Shown: positions 6,565 through 33,771 of the stretch, in pieces
How the letters are laid out: every line of letters starts with the position of its first letter
Position numbering within the stretch: position 1 is the stretch's first letter
Source of the DNA: Parasphingorhabdus flavimaris
Lineage (GTDB): Bacteria > Pseudomonadota > Alphaproteobacteria > Sphingomonadales > Sphingomonadaceae
DNA length: 64,000 bases
Reading direction: 5' to 3'
NCBI RefSeq assembly: GCF_013371215.1
Contig: NZ_JABWMH010000003.1
Location: 62,001 to 126,000 of the forward strand
The notes under the pieces: generated by a model
What the model saw: the letters and a program-made list of their open reading frames with translations, nothing else
Told to the model about the DNA's origin: nothing
The model's database searches: none
Program-made: the position numbers and the translations under genes

Positions 6565-6603
6565 AAAAAGCCGGTTATCACGATGGTGATGACCGGCTTT
6601 TTT
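6565..6603 (+). terminator. Rho-independent terminator after the aldehyde dehydrogenase
   Basis: An 11-bp stem (CCGGTTATCAC pairing with GTGATGACCGG, one G-U pair) closes a GATG loop. It is flanked by an A-run and followed by TTTTTT. It separates the ligase-P450-ALDH operon from the thiolase gene, which has its own operator-like site. Confidence 0.88.
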
Positions 6604-27415: not shown

Positions 27416-30400
27416 CTAGTGAAAATCCCGTGACTTTGGCAATATCCGGACGTTGCGCGGATGGCCGTGGCGGGGATAGGCGGGCTGCGGTCCTGTCGCC
27501 TGCTCTTCCTGCCGGGCTGCCCAGCGGTCCTCGTTGCGATAGATGGGCCGCTTCACCTCGTCGGCGCGGGATAGTGGCATGTCCGGCCGGTCGCGGTCGG
27601 AAATGTCGTCGAGCATGAAGCTATAATCCTCGACCCGCGTCGTCATCAAATGGGTCACGCCCTCGACGCTGCGCTGGACCTCGCCGGTGGCGAGCATCAG
27701 CCGCGCGGCCATTACCGGCCGACGCATTTTCTCGAAGCGGCTGGCCCAGAGCAGCAGGTTGGCGACGCCGCTTTCATCCTCCAGCGTGATGAACACCGCA
27801 TTGCCCTTGCCCGGTCGCTGGCGGATCAGGACAACGCCGGCGACCTTCGCCTGCGAGCCGTTTTTGGCCTTGGCCAGTTCGGCGCAGCTGAGCACGCCCA
27901 GTTCCCGCAAGCGCTCGCGCAGAAATTCCATCGGATGGCCTTTCAGCGACAGGCGGACGCTTTGATAGTCCGCGACGACATGCTCGCCCTTGGTCATGGC
28001 CGGCAGATGTGCGTCTTGCTCCCGACCCAGTTCCTTCGCCTGTGCCGCCTCGAACAGCGGCAATGTATTGACCGGCGTCCGGCGCACTTCCCACAGCGCC
28101 TGCCGCCGGTCGAGCCCCAGCGACCGGCAGGCATCGGCATCGGCGAGCAGGCGCAGCGCGCGGGCGGGGAGGTCGGCCTTGTGGGCCAGTTCCTCGATCG
28201 TGCGGAAAGGCCGCGCGGCGCGGATCTGATCGGCCCAGGCTTCGCGAAACCCGTCGATCTGGCGCAGCCCGATGCGGAGAAAGTTTTCCTCCCCGCGCGA
28301 AGCGTGGGGAGGGGGACCATCCGAAGGATGGTGGAGGGGCCGCTGCGCAGAGGTTCTCCCGCCGCCGGCCCCTCCACCATCAGACGCCGCTGCGCTCTGG
28401 CTGACGGTCCCCCTCCCCGAAGCTGAAGCTTCGGGGAGGATGTTTTTCTCCACCCGGTTATCCCAGTCGCTGAAATTCACATCCGGTTCCCGCACCTCCA
28501 CCCCGTGCTCGCGCGCGTCGCGGACCAGCTGGGCCGGCGCATAGAAACCCATTGGCTGCGAATTGAGCAAAGCCGCGGCGAACACCGCCGGGTGGTGGCA
28601 TTTGATCCAGCTCGAGACATAGACCAGCCGGGCAAAGCTGATCGCGTGGCTCTCCGGAAAGCCATAGCTGCCAAAGCCCTGGATCTGCTTGTAGCAGCGC
28701 TCGGCGAAATCCCGTTCATAGCCCTTGGCGGTCATGCCGGTAATCATCTTTTCCTCGAAATGATGGATCGTCCCGACATTGCGAAAGGTCGCCATCGCCC
28801 GGCGCAGCTTGTTGGCATCGCCGGGGGAGAAATCGGCGGTGACGATCGCCAGCTTCATCGCCTGTTCCTGGAACAGGGGCACGCCAAAGGTCCGGCCGAG
28901 CACGGATTTCAGCTCGTCCGGATCATGCGGCGGGGCGGGCGAGGGCAGGGTCACCTTTTCCACGCCCGAACGCCGCCGCAGATAGGGATGGACCATCTCC
29001 CCCTCGATCGGCCCCGGCCGGACAATCGCCACCTGGATCACCAGATCATAAAATTCGCGCGGTTTCAGCCGCGGCAGCATGTTGATCTGGGCCCGGCTCT
29101 CGACCTGAAACACGCCGATACTGTCGCCCCTGCACAGCATGCGATAGGTCGCGGGGTCCTCGTGCGGGATATTCTGGAGAGTCCATTTTTCCTCCTCGTG
29201 CGCAGCATGGGGAGGGGGACCATCCGCAGGATGGTGGAGGGGCATCTCCAGTGCAGCGATCCCGGCGGCGGCCCCTCCACCATCAGCCGCCGCTGCGCTC
29301 TGGCTGACGGTCCCCCTCCCCGAAGCTGCCGCTTCGGGGAGGATGTTTAGGCTCTCCAGCATATCAAACGCCTTGCGGATGCAGGTCAGCATACCGAGCG
29401 CCAAAATATCGACCTTCATCAGGCCGAGCGTGTCGATGTCATTCTTGTCCCACTCGATGAAAGTGCGGTCGTCCATCGCCGCATTGTGGATCGGTACGGT
29501 CTCGTCGAGCCGGTCCTGGGTCAGCACGAAGCCGCCGACATGTTGCGACAGGTGGCGGGGAAATTGCAGGATCTGCTGGACCAGATCGCCGAGCCGCCGG
29601 ATTTCCGGATTGTCGGGATCGAGGCCGGTTTCGGCAAAGCGCTTGTCGGGCTTTTTGCCGCCGTGGCTGCCCCAGACGGTGCTGGAGAGACGGCTGGTGA
29701 TATCCTCCGACAGGCCGAGCGCCTTGCCGACCTCGCGGATCGCGCTGCGCGAGCGATAGTGGATCACGGTCGCGGCAATGCCGGCGCGGTGGCGGCCATA
29801 GCGGGCATAGATATATTGAATCACTTCCTCGCGCCGCTCATGTTCGAAATCGACGTCGATATCCGGTGGTTCGCGGCGCTCTTCGGAAATGAAGCGCGAG
29901 AAGAGCAGGTCATGCTCCATCGGATCGGCCGAGGTGATGCCGAGCAGGTAGCAGACCGCGCTGTTCGCCGCCGACCCGCGCCCCTGGCAGAGTATGCCCT
30001 GATCCTGGGCGAATTTGACGATGTCGTGGACGGTCAGGAAATAGGGCGCATATTTCATCTTTTCGATCAGCCGCAATTCCTCCTCGACCTTGGCGCGCAA
30101 CCGTTCGGGCAGGGTCTCGCCATGGCGATCATGGGCGGCGGTCCAGGTCAGATGCGCAAGCCAGCCCTGCGGCGTCCAGCCTGCGGGCACCGGTTCGTCG
30201 GGATAATGGTAGCTGAGTTCATCGAGCGTGAAATCGACCATGCCGAGCAGTTTTTGCGTCTCGGCAATCGCTTCGGGATGATCGCGGAACAGGCGCGCCA
30301 TTTCTGACGGGGGTTTGAGAAACCGCTCGGCATTGGCGGCGAGCAGGCGGCCCGCCTTGGGGATCGTCGTCTTCTCGGCGATGCAGGTGAGGATGTCGTG

Positions 30401-31138
30401 CAGCGGGCGCTGTTCGGGCGTTGCATAGAGCGGGTCGTTGGTGGCGATAAGCGGAATGCCGGTCGCCTGGGAGAGACCGTGCAATCTGGCGAGATAGCGC
30501 TTGTCCGGCCCCGAGCGCGGCATGGTCGCGCCAAGCCAGACACGGGGGGTGCGGGAACGAAGCCGCCCAAATATTTCCTCCCCGTGCGCAGCATGGGGAG
30601 GGGGACCATCCGCAGGATGGTGGAGGGGCCGCTCCGCAAAGACTCTCCCGCCGCCGGCCCCTCCACCATCAGCCGCCGCTGCGCTCTGGCTGACGGTCCC
30701 CCTCCCCGAAGCTGGCGCTTCGGGGAGGATGATCAGCGCCCAATCCTCGCTGCACCACTCCAGCAAGTCCGCCTCGTAGAGAAAGCAATCGCCCTTCTCC
30801 GCCCGCAAATTGCCGGTCGAGAGCAGCCGTGTCAGCCGCCCCCAGCCGCGCCGGTTCAGCGGATAGACAATCACTTCCGGCGTCTCGTCGGCAAAGACCA
30901 GCCGTGATCCGACGATCAGTTTGAAATCCGGCAGCAGCAGCCCTTCCTCCGCGGCATCCTCATGCGCCCGGCGCAGCGCGGCATGGGCGCGCACGACACC
31001 GGCGACGCTGTTGCGGTCGGCGATGCCGATACCGGTCATACCCAGCGCCATCGCCTGCAGCACCATGTCGGCGGGGGACGAGGCGCCGCGCAGGAAGCTG
31101 TAATGGGTGGAGGCGGCGAGTTCCGCGAAAACCGTCAT
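27416..31138 (-). CDS. dnaE2: Error-prone DNA polymerase III alpha subunit DnaE2 (ImuC) with three in-frame palindromic insertions
   Basis: The 1240-residue C-family polymerase performs SOS-induced translesion synthesis with ImuA and ImuB. A PHP domain opens the protein (THYSFLRGASSPADMVLQA; GIADRNSVAGVVRAH). The palm has PDIDVDFEHERREEVI with the catalytic aspartates. The C-terminal part carries an HhH region and an OB fold. Family members are about 1040-1090 residues, so this one is about 150 longer. The excess is three insertions of about 52 residues at 137-188, 599-650 and 900-951, each encoded by the same 154-bp palindromic element in the same frame. The frame is uninterrupted, so the gene may still be functional. 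A palindromic repeat precedes the start. Confidence 0.93.
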   Translation of the reverse strand: MTVFAELAASTHYSFLRGASSPADMVLQAMALGMTGIGIADRNSVAGVVRAHAALRRAHEDAAEEGLLLPDFKLIVGSRLVFADETPEVIVYPLNRRGWGRLTRLLSTGNLRAEKGDCFLYEADLLEWCSEDWALIILPEAPASGRGTVSQSAAAADGGGAGGGRVFAERPLHHPADGPPPHAAHGEEIFGRLRSRTPRVWLGATMPRSGPDKRYLARLHGLSQATGIPLIATNDPLYATPEQRPLHDILTCIAEKTTIPKAGRLLAANAERFLKPPSEMARLFRDHPEAIAETQKLLGMVDFTLDELSYHYPDEPVPAGWTPQGWLAHLTWTAAHDRHGETLPERLRAKVEEELRLIEKMKYAPYFLTVHDIVKFAQDQGILCQGRGSAANSAVCYLLGITSADPMEHDLLFSRFISEERREPPDIDVDFEHERREEVIQYIYARYGRHRAGIAATVIHYRSRSAIREVGKALGLSEDITSRLSSTVWGSHGGKKPDKRFAETGLDPDNPEIRRLGDLVQQILQFPRHLSQHVGGFVLTQDRLDETVPIHNAAMDDRTFIEWDKNDIDTLGLMKVDILALGMLTCIRKAFDMLESLNILPEAAASGRGTVSQSAAAADGGGAAAGIAALEMPLHHPADGPPPHAAHEEEKWTLQNIPHEDPATYRMLCRGDSIGVFQVESRAQINMLPRLKPREFYDLVIQVAIVRPGPIEGEMVHPYLRRRSGVEKVTLPSPAPPHDPDELKSVLGRTFGVPLFQEQAMKLAIVTADFSPGDANKLRRAMATFRNVGTIHHFEEKMITGMTAKGYERDFAERCYKQIQGFGSYGFPESHAISFARLVYVSSWIKCHHPAVFAAALLNSQPMGFYAPAQLVRDAREHGVEVREPDVNFSDWDNRVEKNILPEASASGRGTVSQSAAASDGGGAGGGRTSAQRPLHHPSDGPPPHASRGEENFLRIGLRQIDGFREAWADQIRAARPFRTIEELAHKADLPARALRLLADADACRSLGLDRRQALWEVRRTPVNTLPLFEAAQAKELGREQDAHLPAMTKGEHVVADYQSVRLSLKGHPMEFLRERLRELGVLSCAELAKAKNGSQAKVAGVVLIRQRPGKGNAVFITLEDESGVANLLLWASRFEKMRRPVMAARLMLATGEVQRSVEGVTHLMTTRVEDYSFMLDDISDRDRPDMPLSRADEVKRPIYRNEDRWAARQEEQATGPQPAYPRHGHPRNVRILPKSRDFH
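28287..28440. repeat. 154-bp palindromic element, copy 3 within dnaE2
   Basis: The element runs from TCCTCCCC to GGGGAGGA and contains nested hairpins (CCATCC-GAA-GGATGG; GGTGGAGGGGCCG paired with CGGCCCCTCCACC). It encodes residues 900-951 of DnaE2, ILPEASASGRG onward, before the LRIGLRQIDGF segment. Length and ends equal those of the other two copies; the central loop differs. Confidence 0.93.
29190..29343. repeat. 154-bp palindromic element, copy 2 within dnaE2
   Basis: Same ends, length and orientation as the copies at 28287 and 30576. It encodes residues 599-650, between AFDMLESLN and the native segment W-T-L-Q-N-I-P-H-E-D-P-A. Its central loop (about 27 bp after GGAGGGG) is the most diverged of the three, and the left end has one change (TCCTCCTC). 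Confidence 0.93.
30576..30729. repeat. 154-bp palindromic element, copy 1 within dnaE2
   Basis: It encodes residues 137-188 in the PHP domain, between E-D-W-A-L-I and F-G-R-L-R-S-R-T. The same TCCTCC/GGAGGA ends bound 154 bp, in the same orientation and reading frame as the other two. The encoded peptide is Ala/Gly/Pro/His-rich and of low complexity. Confidence 0.93.
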
Positions 31139-31151
31139 TGCGAGGGGCCAT

Positions 31152-31259
31152 ATCCGTTCGTGTCGAGCGAAGTCGAGACACCGCTAACGGCCTCTCGCCT
31201 TCGGCAGGAACTGCCGAAGTTTATCCTGAGCCTGTCGAAGGGCTCGACACGAACGGATT
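31152..31259. repeat. CGTTCGTGTCGAG palindromic repeat between imuB and dnaE2
   Basis: Outer arms 31152-31168 and 31243-31259 are exact reverse complements of 17 bp. An inner hairpin CTTCGGCAG-GAA-CTGCCGAAG is at 31199-31219. It fills most of the 142-bp imuB-dnaE2 gap and would form a large hairpin in the operon transcript. Confidence 0.9.
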
Positions 31260-31280
31260 CAGGGCAACAGATATTCTCCA

Positions 31281-32828
31281 TCACGCAAACAGCCCATGCA
31301 CATACCAGTCCGGGTTCGCTTTCTCTTCGCCGTAAAGCCCGTGCCGGAACAGCCAGTAGCGCCGGCCGCGGGCATCCTCGACGCGGTAATAGTCGCGGGT
31401 CAGGCCGCCCTTGCCCGGCTGTTGCCCGTCCTTGCGCTGCCACCATTCCGAGGCGATCCGCTCCGGCCCTTCATAGCGCATCACCTGATGGCTCTTGCGC
31501 CGCCAGGTGAAGCGATAGGGCGGGCCGTCGGGGACCTCGGCGATCACCTGCACCCGTTGCGGCGGGTCGAACATGTGCAAGGGGCGCATCGGCGGATTGT
31601 CGGGAGACTGCCGCTTCCACGGCACCGGCGGCGGAGCGTTGAGCGCGGGCAGCGCGAGCAGGCCCTGTTCCGGGATATGGCTGTCGGCGGGGGCAAATTT
31701 CTGCACCCGGTCGCGGCCCAGCCTTGTGCTGAGCTGGCTGACCAGAGCAACCTCATCGCCGCGCCGGTCCTCGCCGCCCTCGAGCCGCAATTGTTGCGGT
31801 GCCAGCACCTCCGAAGCGACAATGCTCAGCCGGATCAGATCATAGCCGAAGCCCGGATTGAGTTCGTCGTTGAGCGCGGCGATCCGTTCGCGCAGCAGGC
31901 GCTGGAACAGGGGCGCATCGCGGGTTGGCGCGCCGGTTTCCAGACCGAGCCGCGCGACATCGCCATCGCAGCGGAACAGCATCATCCGGATCATCCGCGC
32001 GCCCTGGCCGCGCTCGTTGAGCCGTTCGGCGGCCTCGGCAAACAGTTCCGACAGGCAGGCAAGCGCGGCATCAATATGGGTCAGCGGCTCGGCAAAGCGG
32101 CGCTCGGTGACGATATTGCCGATCCGGCGCAGCGGATCGATCGGCCGGTCCTCCAGTCCCAATATCCGGTCCAGCCGCAAGGTGAGCTCCATCCCGAAGC
32201 GCGCCGCCAGATTGGCGCGCGGCCGCTCGGCCAGATCGCCGATCCTGTACAGCCCCGCCCGTTCCAGCGACTGGTGGGTCTTTGCGTCCATCGCCAGCGC
32301 GGCGACCGGCAGTTGCGCCTCCGCGCCTTCCTTCAGGCCATGCCGGGCCAGCGCCAGCGCCGCATCGGCGGTTCCGGCCAGAGCCCAGCGGGCGTTATAA
32401 CCCGCGGCATCAAGCCGGTCCTCGGCATCCTGCGCCAGCCTTTCCTCATCACCGTGGAGATGCGCCGCGCCGGTGATATCGAGGATCAGCGCATGAGGCG
32501 GCTCGACCGCGACCATTGGCGTGTAGCGCTCGCAGGCCTCGGCCAGCCGCGACAGCAGGTCGGCGTCGGCCAGCGGCTGATGGTCGAAGGCGAGCAGGTC
32601 GGGCACCCGCGCCCGCGCGTCGGCGAGCTTCATGCCCGTGCCCAGACCGAGAGACACGGCCTGCCGGTCCGCCGCCATGATCACCATCGCGCCGCGGATT
32701 TTCTCGGTCAGTACGAAGGGATGGTCAGGCGGCCCGTGTGCCCTGATGATCCGTTCGGACGGCAGCCAGGGCAGGGACAGCGCCAGTATCCGGCGCGCCT
32801 TGCTGCTCGCGGAAGACTTGATCGTCAC
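31281..32828 (-). CDS. imuB: Y-family polymerase homologue ImuB
   Basis: A 515-residue Y-family DNA polymerase-like protein that bridges ImuA, DnaE2 and the beta clamp in SOS mutagenesis and is thought to be inactive as a polymerase. The N-terminus R-R-I-L-A-L-S-L-P-W-L-P-S-E-R matches the family, with the central P-P-H-A-L-I-L-D-I-T-G-A-A-H-L-H-G segment. The C-terminus ends in a conserved YRVEDARGRRYWLFRHGLYG block. The GTG at 32828 is chosen because GGAG lies about 8 bp upstream and the family motif starts just downstream. It overlaps imuA by 104 bp in another frame. Confidence 0.92.
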   Translation of the reverse strand: MTIKSSASSKARRILALSLPWLPSERIIRAHGPPDHPFVLTEKIRGAMVIMAADRQAVSLGLGTGMKLADARARVPDLLAFDHQPLADADLLSRLAEACERYTPMVAVEPPHALILDITGAAHLHGDEERLAQDAEDRLDAAGYNARWALAGTADAALALARHGLKEGAEAQLPVAALAMDAKTHQSLERAGLYRIGDLAERPRANLAARFGMELTLRLDRILGLEDRPIDPLRRIGNIVTERRFAEPLTHIDAALACLSELFAEAAERLNERGQGARMIRMMLFRCDGDVARLGLETGAPTRDAPLFQRLLRERIAALNDELNPGFGYDLIRLSIVASEVLAPQQLRLEGGEDRRGDEVALVSQLSTRLGRDRVQKFAPADSHIPEQGLLALPALNAPPPVPWKRQSPDNPPMRPLHMFDPPQRVQVIAEVPDGPPYRFTWRRKSHQVMRYEGPERIASEWWQRKDGQQPGKGGLTRDYYRVEDARGRRYWLFRHGLYGEEKANPDWYVHGLFA

Positions 32829-33633
32829 GGTTCCACTCCAGTCGGGCGTTCAGCCCGTAAAGACCGCTGCGATGGCGCAGCAGATTGATGTCGAAAGCAG
32901 GATGGCCCGGAGCGTTGGCCTCGAGCGCGAGCGACGGCGCCGCAGCCACTGACCAGCGGCTGAAGGCGGCGGTCGGCAGAGGATTGTCCGGATCGCTGCC
33001 GGAGCGCAGGATCAGGCTGAGGGTGCCGGACTTCTGCGCCGACAGCGACAGGCGGCGGGTGGCGGTCAGGTCGAGGCCCTTGGGCTTCTTGCCCGCCAGT
33101 TCGATGATCACCGCCGCCATCGCCGAGGACCGCACCCCATCGGCGGCCGCGCGCAGCGCCGCGATAGCATCCGGCGCATCGACATGGAGGATGCTGTCCG
33201 GATCGATGCCCAGTTCCGCCAGTCCCGGCGGATAGAGCCGGCCCTGCCGTCTCGCTTCGCCGCTTTCGCTGATCCACAGGACGGGGCGCGCTTCCTGATC
33301 CAGGTTCCGGCAACGCTGCGCCATCAGCAGCGCCATCGCCGCGGCACTGGTCCGGTCATCCCTGTTCTCTGCATGCAGTTCGTGCAGCGCCGCGCGCGGC
33401 AGACCATCGGCTTTCGCATTGCCACGCAAGGCGGCGTCGATCCGTTCGACCCCGAAACCGAAATGCGACGGCGCGCCGTCATCCTCCGATGTTCTCACAC
33501 CGGACGCCGCCAATATTCTCGCAAGCCGCGCCCGCAAGACAGAGGGTTTGGCTGGTATCGCCGGAGGCACAGCAGAGGGGTTGTCCGGTGAAGGCTCAAG
33601 AGCCTGACCCGAATCCGAATCGATATTGTTCAT
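32725..33633 (-). CDS. imuA: SOS mutagenesis protein ImuA (RecA-like)
   Basis: A 302-residue protein of the ImuA family, a RecA-fold partner of ImuB and DnaE2. The core shows A-L-H-E-L-H-A-E-N-R-D-D, V-L-W-I-S-E-S-G-E-A and R-L-S-L-S-A-Q-K-S-G-T-L-S-L-I-L-R, typical of the family. The ATG at 33633 is chosen over the upstream in-frame codon at 33702, because a LexA-type box overlaps 33633 and puts the promoter just upstream. Its 3' end overlaps imuB by 104 bp. Confidence 0.87.
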   Translation of the reverse strand: MNNIDSDSGQALEPSPDNPSAVPPAIPAKPSVLRARLARILAASGVRTSEDDGAPSHFGFGVERIDAALRGNAKADGLPRAALHELHAENRDDRTSAAAMALLMAQRCRNLDQEARPVLWISESGEARRQGRLYPPGLAELGIDPDSILHVDAPDAIAALRAAADGVRSSAMAAVIIELAGKKPKGLDLTATRRLSLSAQKSGTLSLILRSGSDPDNPLPTAAFSRWSVAAAPSLALEANAPGHPAFDINLLRHRSGLYGLNARLEWNRDDQVFREQQGAPDTGAVPALAAVRTDHQGTRAA

Positions 33634-33642
33634 GATTTGTTC
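33628..33642. promoter_or_regulatory. LexA-type SOS box overlapping the imuA start codon
   Basis: GTTC-N7-GTTC, the alphaproteobacterial LexA box, covers 33628-33642 and includes the start codon of imuA. Nearby on the minus strand are a TTGACC element and an AT-rich TATTTT with 16-bp spacing. Repression by LexA and induction by DNA damage are inferred. The site's overlap with the start suggests a very short or no 5' leader. Confidence 0.75.
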
Positions 33643-33771
33643 TAAAATATAGAACGGACGGATTTGGTCAAGCCTGTTCACGATTTGCGAGATCAGGCGC
33701 AACAGGCTTTATCGCATAATGCTTGACCGGAGGCGAGGGGAAGATGAACATGGTCCAACAGGAGGAATGCT

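Follow-up and report, generated by a model that had tools for sequence, protein, structure and literature searches.

Three REP-like palindromic elements in loops of DnaE2, an error-prone polymerase of Parasphingorhabdus flavimaris, and palindromes at the same loops in related genomes

Intragenic repetitive extragenic palindromic sequences (REPs) were reported in 2013 for DnaE2, tRNA synthetases, and TruB, the tRNA synthetase and TruB cases including those of S. alaskensis and E. litoralis; that paper also places a Rickettsia palindromic element (RPE) in TruB of R. conorii and describes different REPs at about one site of recB in two Xanthomonas species, unlike the situation in other genes (PMC3733652). 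Flexible loops or, alternatively, mutator effects are suggested there. RPEs are characterized as palindromes of about 150 bp that lie in frame in unrelated genes (PMC10969869). Here, we describe three palindromic elements of 154 nt within the dnaE2 (imuC) gene of Parasphingorhabdus flavimaris, located in a stretch of 64,000 nt of contig NZ_JABWMH010000003.1 (positions 62,001–126,000 of the forward strand), which is referred to as the window. We take S. alaskensis and E. litoralis to be sphingomonads.

The elements resemble RPEs in being in-frame palindromes of about 150 bp in unrelated protein genes (here for DnaE2, IleS, and TruB). The parallel to Rickettsia drawn in an initial annotation of the window holds as a likeness of description; the differences are that the hosts here are free-living sphingomonads and that one subtype was found only in dnaE2. 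With the GTAG and CGTC REP superfamilies (PMC3733652), they share a location inside DnaE2, tRNA synthetase, and TruB genes. Unlike these, none of the 32 members of the window's family carries a CGTC- or GTAG-tagged hairpin according to a crude hairpin-plus-tag scan, which detected CGTC-like members in 5 of the 13 families distinguished below, all at TruB or IleS loops; several loops here are each common to several families, and one subtype occupies one gene only. The composite inverted hairpins with a variable centre are also reminiscent of REP doublets forming hairpins (REPINs) and bacterial interspersed mosaic elements (BIMEs); unlike those moved by a REP-associated tyrosine transposase (RAYT), they occur in a genome in which a PF01797 search recognized no RAYT.

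Because intragenic REPs in DnaE2, tRNA synthetases, and TruB were published in 2013 (PMC3733652), the suggestion of the initial annotation that such inserts had not been described cannot be maintained. What is new here is an untagged subtype confined to dnaE2 and the occupation of fixed loops by unrelated families; no report of loops common to many families or of a dnaE2-confined subtype was found in the open-licence literature searched. We propose, with a probability of about 0.7, that REP-like palindromes have lodged in three tolerant loops of DnaE2, where they are copied within the gene and turn over, and that the same turnover takes place in TruB and IleS. The phenomenon itself is well supported. 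It amounts to a natural experiment, in which a few loops of three conserved proteins hold unrelated palindromes in different species, with empty sites and scars for comparison; it allows one to ask how palindromes enter genes, whether they have a preference for existing palindromes or just survive where a loop is tolerant, and whether an error-prone polymerase is altered by additional peptides.

The three elements in dnaE2 and related copies in the genome

On the minus strand, the dnaE2 frame runs uninterrupted between 31138 and 27416, and its product scores 1369 bits against an NCBIfam cut-off of 939 for error-prone DNA polymerase. The initial annotation had located in it three 154-bp segments with TCCTCC...GGAGGA ends, and their coordinates (Table 1), ends, shared orientation, and shared frame are correct. 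These ends constitute terminal inverted repeats, a trait of miniature inverted-repeat transposable elements. Relative to the first element in coordinate order (28287–28440), the second is 87% and the third 93% identical; a repeat search delimited a 163-nt family with copies 85% and 92% identical. Folded as RNA, the first element reaches z = −8.6, with 0 of 200 shuffles folding as well, and folding of the elements with their flanks gives z-scores of −5.4 (S1), −8.3 (S2), and −6.7 (S3). The S2 element sits between the Pfam matches to the polymerase core (residues 326–580) and the finger domain (646–806), and the S3 element falls within the HHH_6 match (879–1014), between two strands.

The S3 loop is empty in the relative G003, where it measures 66 nt against 222 nt here, a net gain of 156 nt or 52 codons; the reading frame is thus kept, although 154 is not a multiple of three. 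This agrees with the earlier estimate of about 52 residues per element in a gene that remains open. We infer that the three segments are translated palindromic elements, namely REP-like composite hairpins, in a working enzyme. That they are instead removed from the RNA or protein, through an intron, an intein, or ribosome bypass, has a nearly negligible probability: no point in favour of it was found, the frame is kept in 26 of 26 whole genes of the genus, and both an intein and a self-splicing intron were rejected, as the DnaE2 family scans contain no intein model or splicing domain and no Rfam family, hence no catalytic RNA, reaches the cut-off in 28000–31400.

A search of the own genome with the element gave 26 match rows, comprising 3 full-length matches, 3 reverse-strand self-matches, and 20 rows elsewhere, each partial, about 34–71 nt long, and mostly covering one element end. 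The expectation that the element recurs beyond dnaE2 is therefore borne out for the outer hairpins. Two of the 16 outside places inspected in ten regions lie in frame within genes, ileS and truB, and are read in frames other than that of dnaE2; at the remaining inspected places, no recognizable gene runs across the element by eye. The genome contains short repeated palindromes, often as inverted pairs, which is a trait of the GTAG and CGTC REP superfamilies. A length scan of intergenic copies caught few of them and supplied only the truB coordinates. The PF01797 search yielded one intact match, by eye an IS200-like TnpA, and one broken match; no RAYT that could act as the mover was recognized, no RAYT-specific model having been run. 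The intact IS200-like transposase gene lies at C2:67825–68178, and no connection to the palindromes was seen.

Table 1. Coordinates of dnaE2, its palindromic elements, neighbouring features, and in-frame family members (window positions unless stated otherwise)
Feature	Position	Strand	Description
dnaE2 (imuC), error-prone DNA polymerase	27416–31138	−	1240 aa, intact, three inserts
Loop S1 element	30576–30729	−	154 nt; about residues 137–188, soon after the Pfam PHP match (11–113); family 0, subtype A
Loop S2 element	29190–29343	−	154 nt; about residues 599–650; subtype A
Loop S3 element	28287–28440	−	154 nt; about residues 900–951; subtype A
Different palindromic repeat	31154–31256		between the stop of the imuB-like gene and the start of dnaE2
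imuB-like gene	31281–32828	−	adjoins dnaE2; matches to DNA polymerase IV weak only; control gene
imuA-like gene	32725–33702	−	named from its position
Family member in ileS	own genome, C3:583291–583415		in frame; host gene over NCBIfam cut-off
Family member in truB	own genome, C1:853968–854092		in frame; host gene over NCBIfam cut-off

Loop contents across the genus and beyond

DnaE2 was sought in 32 genomes of the genus, 31 of which gave some match, two of them to DnaE1 only. A complete single-frame DnaE2 was available in 26 genomes; G001, G002, and G004 (no DnaE2), G017 (partial), G042 (two contigs), and G022 (interrupted) were left out. The halves from G042 still entered the fold and family counts, from which the S1 element of G005, containing N, was excluded. 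In G022, on a single contig, dnaE2 and ileS are both broken near palindromic inserts, and assembly errors in the hairpins are suspected.

Among the 26 intact DnaE2 proteins, minority insertions of at least 8 residues occur at S1 in 12, at S2 in 10, and at S3 in 13 genomes; the only other insertions of this size are at two positions of the C-terminal tail (3 and 1 genomes). The loop content varies among relatives and consists of subtype A, its cousin B, unrelated palindromes, short scars, or nothing. Named strains with inserts include Parasphingorhabdus marina DSM 22363 (at S3) and Sphingorhabdus sp. 109 (at S1 and S2). The nearest relative by DnaE2, G044 (94%), holds A, B, and A at S1–S3 against A, A, and A here, and the three inserts of G015 include zero of subtype A. 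This comparison upholds the initial view of the segments as insertions, since relatives show empty sites (e.g., S3 of G003), scars, and unrelated families at the same loops, not the same peptide throughout as a conserved loop. In a tree of 26 core sequences, inner nodes are poorly supported (0.34 for G000 with G044), and it was therefore not used to count gains and losses.

Segments shorter than 75 nt were not folded, and the thresholds and the linkage rule were our own choices. At seven loops of DnaE2, TruB, and IleS, there are 94 segments of at least 75 nt, 78 of them at z ≤ −2.5 and 75 at z ≤ −3; the 78 core control windows have a mean z of −0.19, with 2 at z ≤ −2.5 and 1 at z ≤ −3. By blastn single linkage, a rule under which family 0 merges subtypes A and B, the 78 palindromic inserts form 13 families, distributed as 2 at S1, 2 at S2, 3 at S3, 8 at TruB, 4 at IleS502, and 1 each at IleS370 and IleS914. 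More than one family (two to eight) is thus present at five of the seven loops, and three families were found at more than one loop. The other 16 segments (one at DnaE2 S3 and 15 at IleS502) lie above z = −2.5 and are read as scar and native loops.

TruB was matched in 29 of the 32 genomes, of which 28 were aligned (G041 was missed by the filter) and 26 folded; all 26 foldable segments have z ≤ −2.5, and the loops of G017 and G020 are short. On the 1sgv chain, which we take to be TruB of M. tuberculosis, residues 151 and 162 bracket the site of the TruB insert. IleS has three such loops (IleS370, IleS502, and IleS914), and its fold step covered 28 genomes with G022 omitted.

In 61 DnaE2 proteins from outside the genus, 21 loops exceed the median length by 30 nt or more, only 2 of which, S1 of Rhizorhapis suberifaciens and S3 of Sphingomonas sp. 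ERG5, are palindromic at z ≤ −3, indicating that the DnaE2 pattern is mostly that of this genus. The 19 others, together with the 16 genus segments above, which show that palindrome-free long loops exist, would fit ordinary length-variable loops whose palindromic look results from chance or codon bias. For the loops of this genus, such an explanation is highly improbable given the z-scores against controls, the near-perfect hairpins, and the occurrence of the same families in other genes; an ordinary conserved loop is likewise not favoured in view of the fold scores and the unrelated families at one loop. For TruB, 59 of 60 outside genomes matched and loci were taken from the best 30, 29 of them new, with 2 dropped for lack of a single open frame. 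Within these best 30 of 59, 7 of 12 loci from other genera of the same family have inserts at z ≤ −3, and none of the 15 from the order's other families does, their loops being 14–19 residues long and not folded.

Selection, structure, and controls

The ratio of nonsynonymous to synonymous divergence (omega) is 0.06–0.14 for core DnaE2 (35 comparisons) against 0.31–2.12 for insert pairs, and the pooled pN/pS of the inserts is 0.48–1.35 per group. The groups consist of chosen same-family inserts, from which G005 (at S3), G009 (at S1), and G042 (at both loops) were left out. Core DnaE2 is under purifying selection and the inserts are near neutral, which indicates a preserved enzyme with drifting insert peptides.

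In the AlphaFold model of residues 1–1200, the mean predicted local distance difference test score (pLDDT) is 72.9, and the longest stretches with pLDDT below 50 are residues 142–185, 605–648, and 902–949, the next longest being 17 residues. The S3 insert lies between modelled strands 895–898 and 952–955. The insert peptides are thus predicted to be disordered. As a control, DnaE1 has open frames of 1168–1182 aa in the 28 genomes with the whole gene. In 17 of 18 named relatives, the product of the imuB-like gene, a name that we assume from its position, has no more than 14 gap positions; the remaining relative gave no match.

Conservation is stronger in the stems than at synonymous sites of the core, as would be expected if the elements were kept for a function, either as mRNA or DNA hairpins that tune expression or as peptides that alter DnaE2 activity, in line with the mutator idea of PMC3733652, which argues that repair genes are hit more often than chance. 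Pairing at first seems to favour this as well, with 44 G-U against 9 A-C cells in 13 elements and a change in both partners of one stem pair; counted by conserved-stem columns, however, the two stand at about 5 to 4, and this tally does not demonstrate selection for mRNA pairing. Loops that are empty or scarred in several species, interchangeable families, and a peptide omega near 1 also speak against a function, which we regard as very doubtful.

Copying within dnaE2 and its alternatives

The core motif of subtype A, with up to 3 mismatches allowed, occurs at 15 places in 9 of the 32 genus genomes, and 15 of 15 are inside dnaE2; a control pattern gave 0 places in the same genomes. According to the translations, the 20 family-0 inserts of DnaE2 (7 at S1, 6 at S2, and 7 at S3) share a single reading frame of the outer hairpin, and the 12 in IleS and TruB read it in other frames. 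Three or four stop-free frames are present in each of four full-length elements checked. The restriction of the motif to dnaE2 and the single frame there point to copying within the gene. In the 30-nt centre, the S3 element of the window is identical to its own S1 at 26 of 30 positions and to S3 of G044 at 21 of 30.

These data do not bear out the initial picture of a mobile element spread through the genome and present here in three independent copies. Judging by its motif, subtype A does not appear to be a general mobile repeat, and copying between the loops of dnaE2 seems likelier than three independent arrivals. Related hairpin ends elsewhere (the 20 outside rows), including those in frame in ileS and truB, and distant full-length relatives in G015 and in truB of G003, among the matches listed, would be consistent with a mobile palindrome that transposed from the genomic pool into dnaE2 on three separate occasions; the absence of the core motif outside dnaE2 in the 32 genomes and the same frame and strand in all three loops make this unlikely. 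The case speaks against taking such multiple inserts for independent arrivals.

The most likely mechanism, in our opinion, combines tolerance in disordered loops, conversion within the gene, and turnover of families, with insertion, conversion, and replacement as its presumed steps. Composite palindromes of the genome-wide kind would insert into permissive loops, where extra disordered residues would do little harm and only frame-keeping copies would survive. Within dnaE2, one subtype would then spread by copying among the loops, probably through gene conversion across shared hairpins, which would carry orientation and frame along. The elements may later become shorter, disappear in frame with a scar left behind, or give way to palindromes of unrelated families, and TruB and IleS would undergo the same loop-by-loop turnover. 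A more tentative extension is that some loops in repair and housekeeping proteins are long-lived landing sites, where a resident palindrome is targeted or replaced by later ones of any family while the gene-confined dnaE2 subtype spreads by conversion; if this were true, protein loops would be a niche with an element turnover of their own.

Several observations weigh against this explanation. Searches with the 154-nt query found, among the matches listed, full-length matches outside dnaE2 at C1:3538906 of G015 (72%) and in truB at C2:1224360 of G003 (68%), so that the confinement holds only for the motif-defined subtype. Shuffled centres reach 0.88 (95th percentile 0.75) and the conversion signal amounts to 30 nt, which makes the centre comparison weak. 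The stems are 90–98% identical between species at a core dS of about 0.2–1.1, with far more diverged centres, and neutral drift of old inserts does not explain this identity; it could reflect hairpin constraint, copying in the recent past, or an exchange of dnaE2 alleles among species, and interspecies recombination of such alleles might also yield the patchwork. The filled and empty S3 sites differ by 156 nt for a 154-nt element, and by eye no clear target-site duplication was demonstrated at the elements; the lack of a recognized RAYT points the same way. Finally, the ImuA length varies by up to 18 residues in the N-terminal part among the relatives examined (not folded), and ImuA is thus no clean control, its imuA-like name also being our assumption from position.

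Some minor features of the window may be added. The palindrome at 31154–31256 resembles, by eye, the family filling S3 in G041 and G015. A hairpin scan of the window missed the three elements and was not applied to them. At 6565–6602, a strong hairpin is followed by a T run and is terminator-like.

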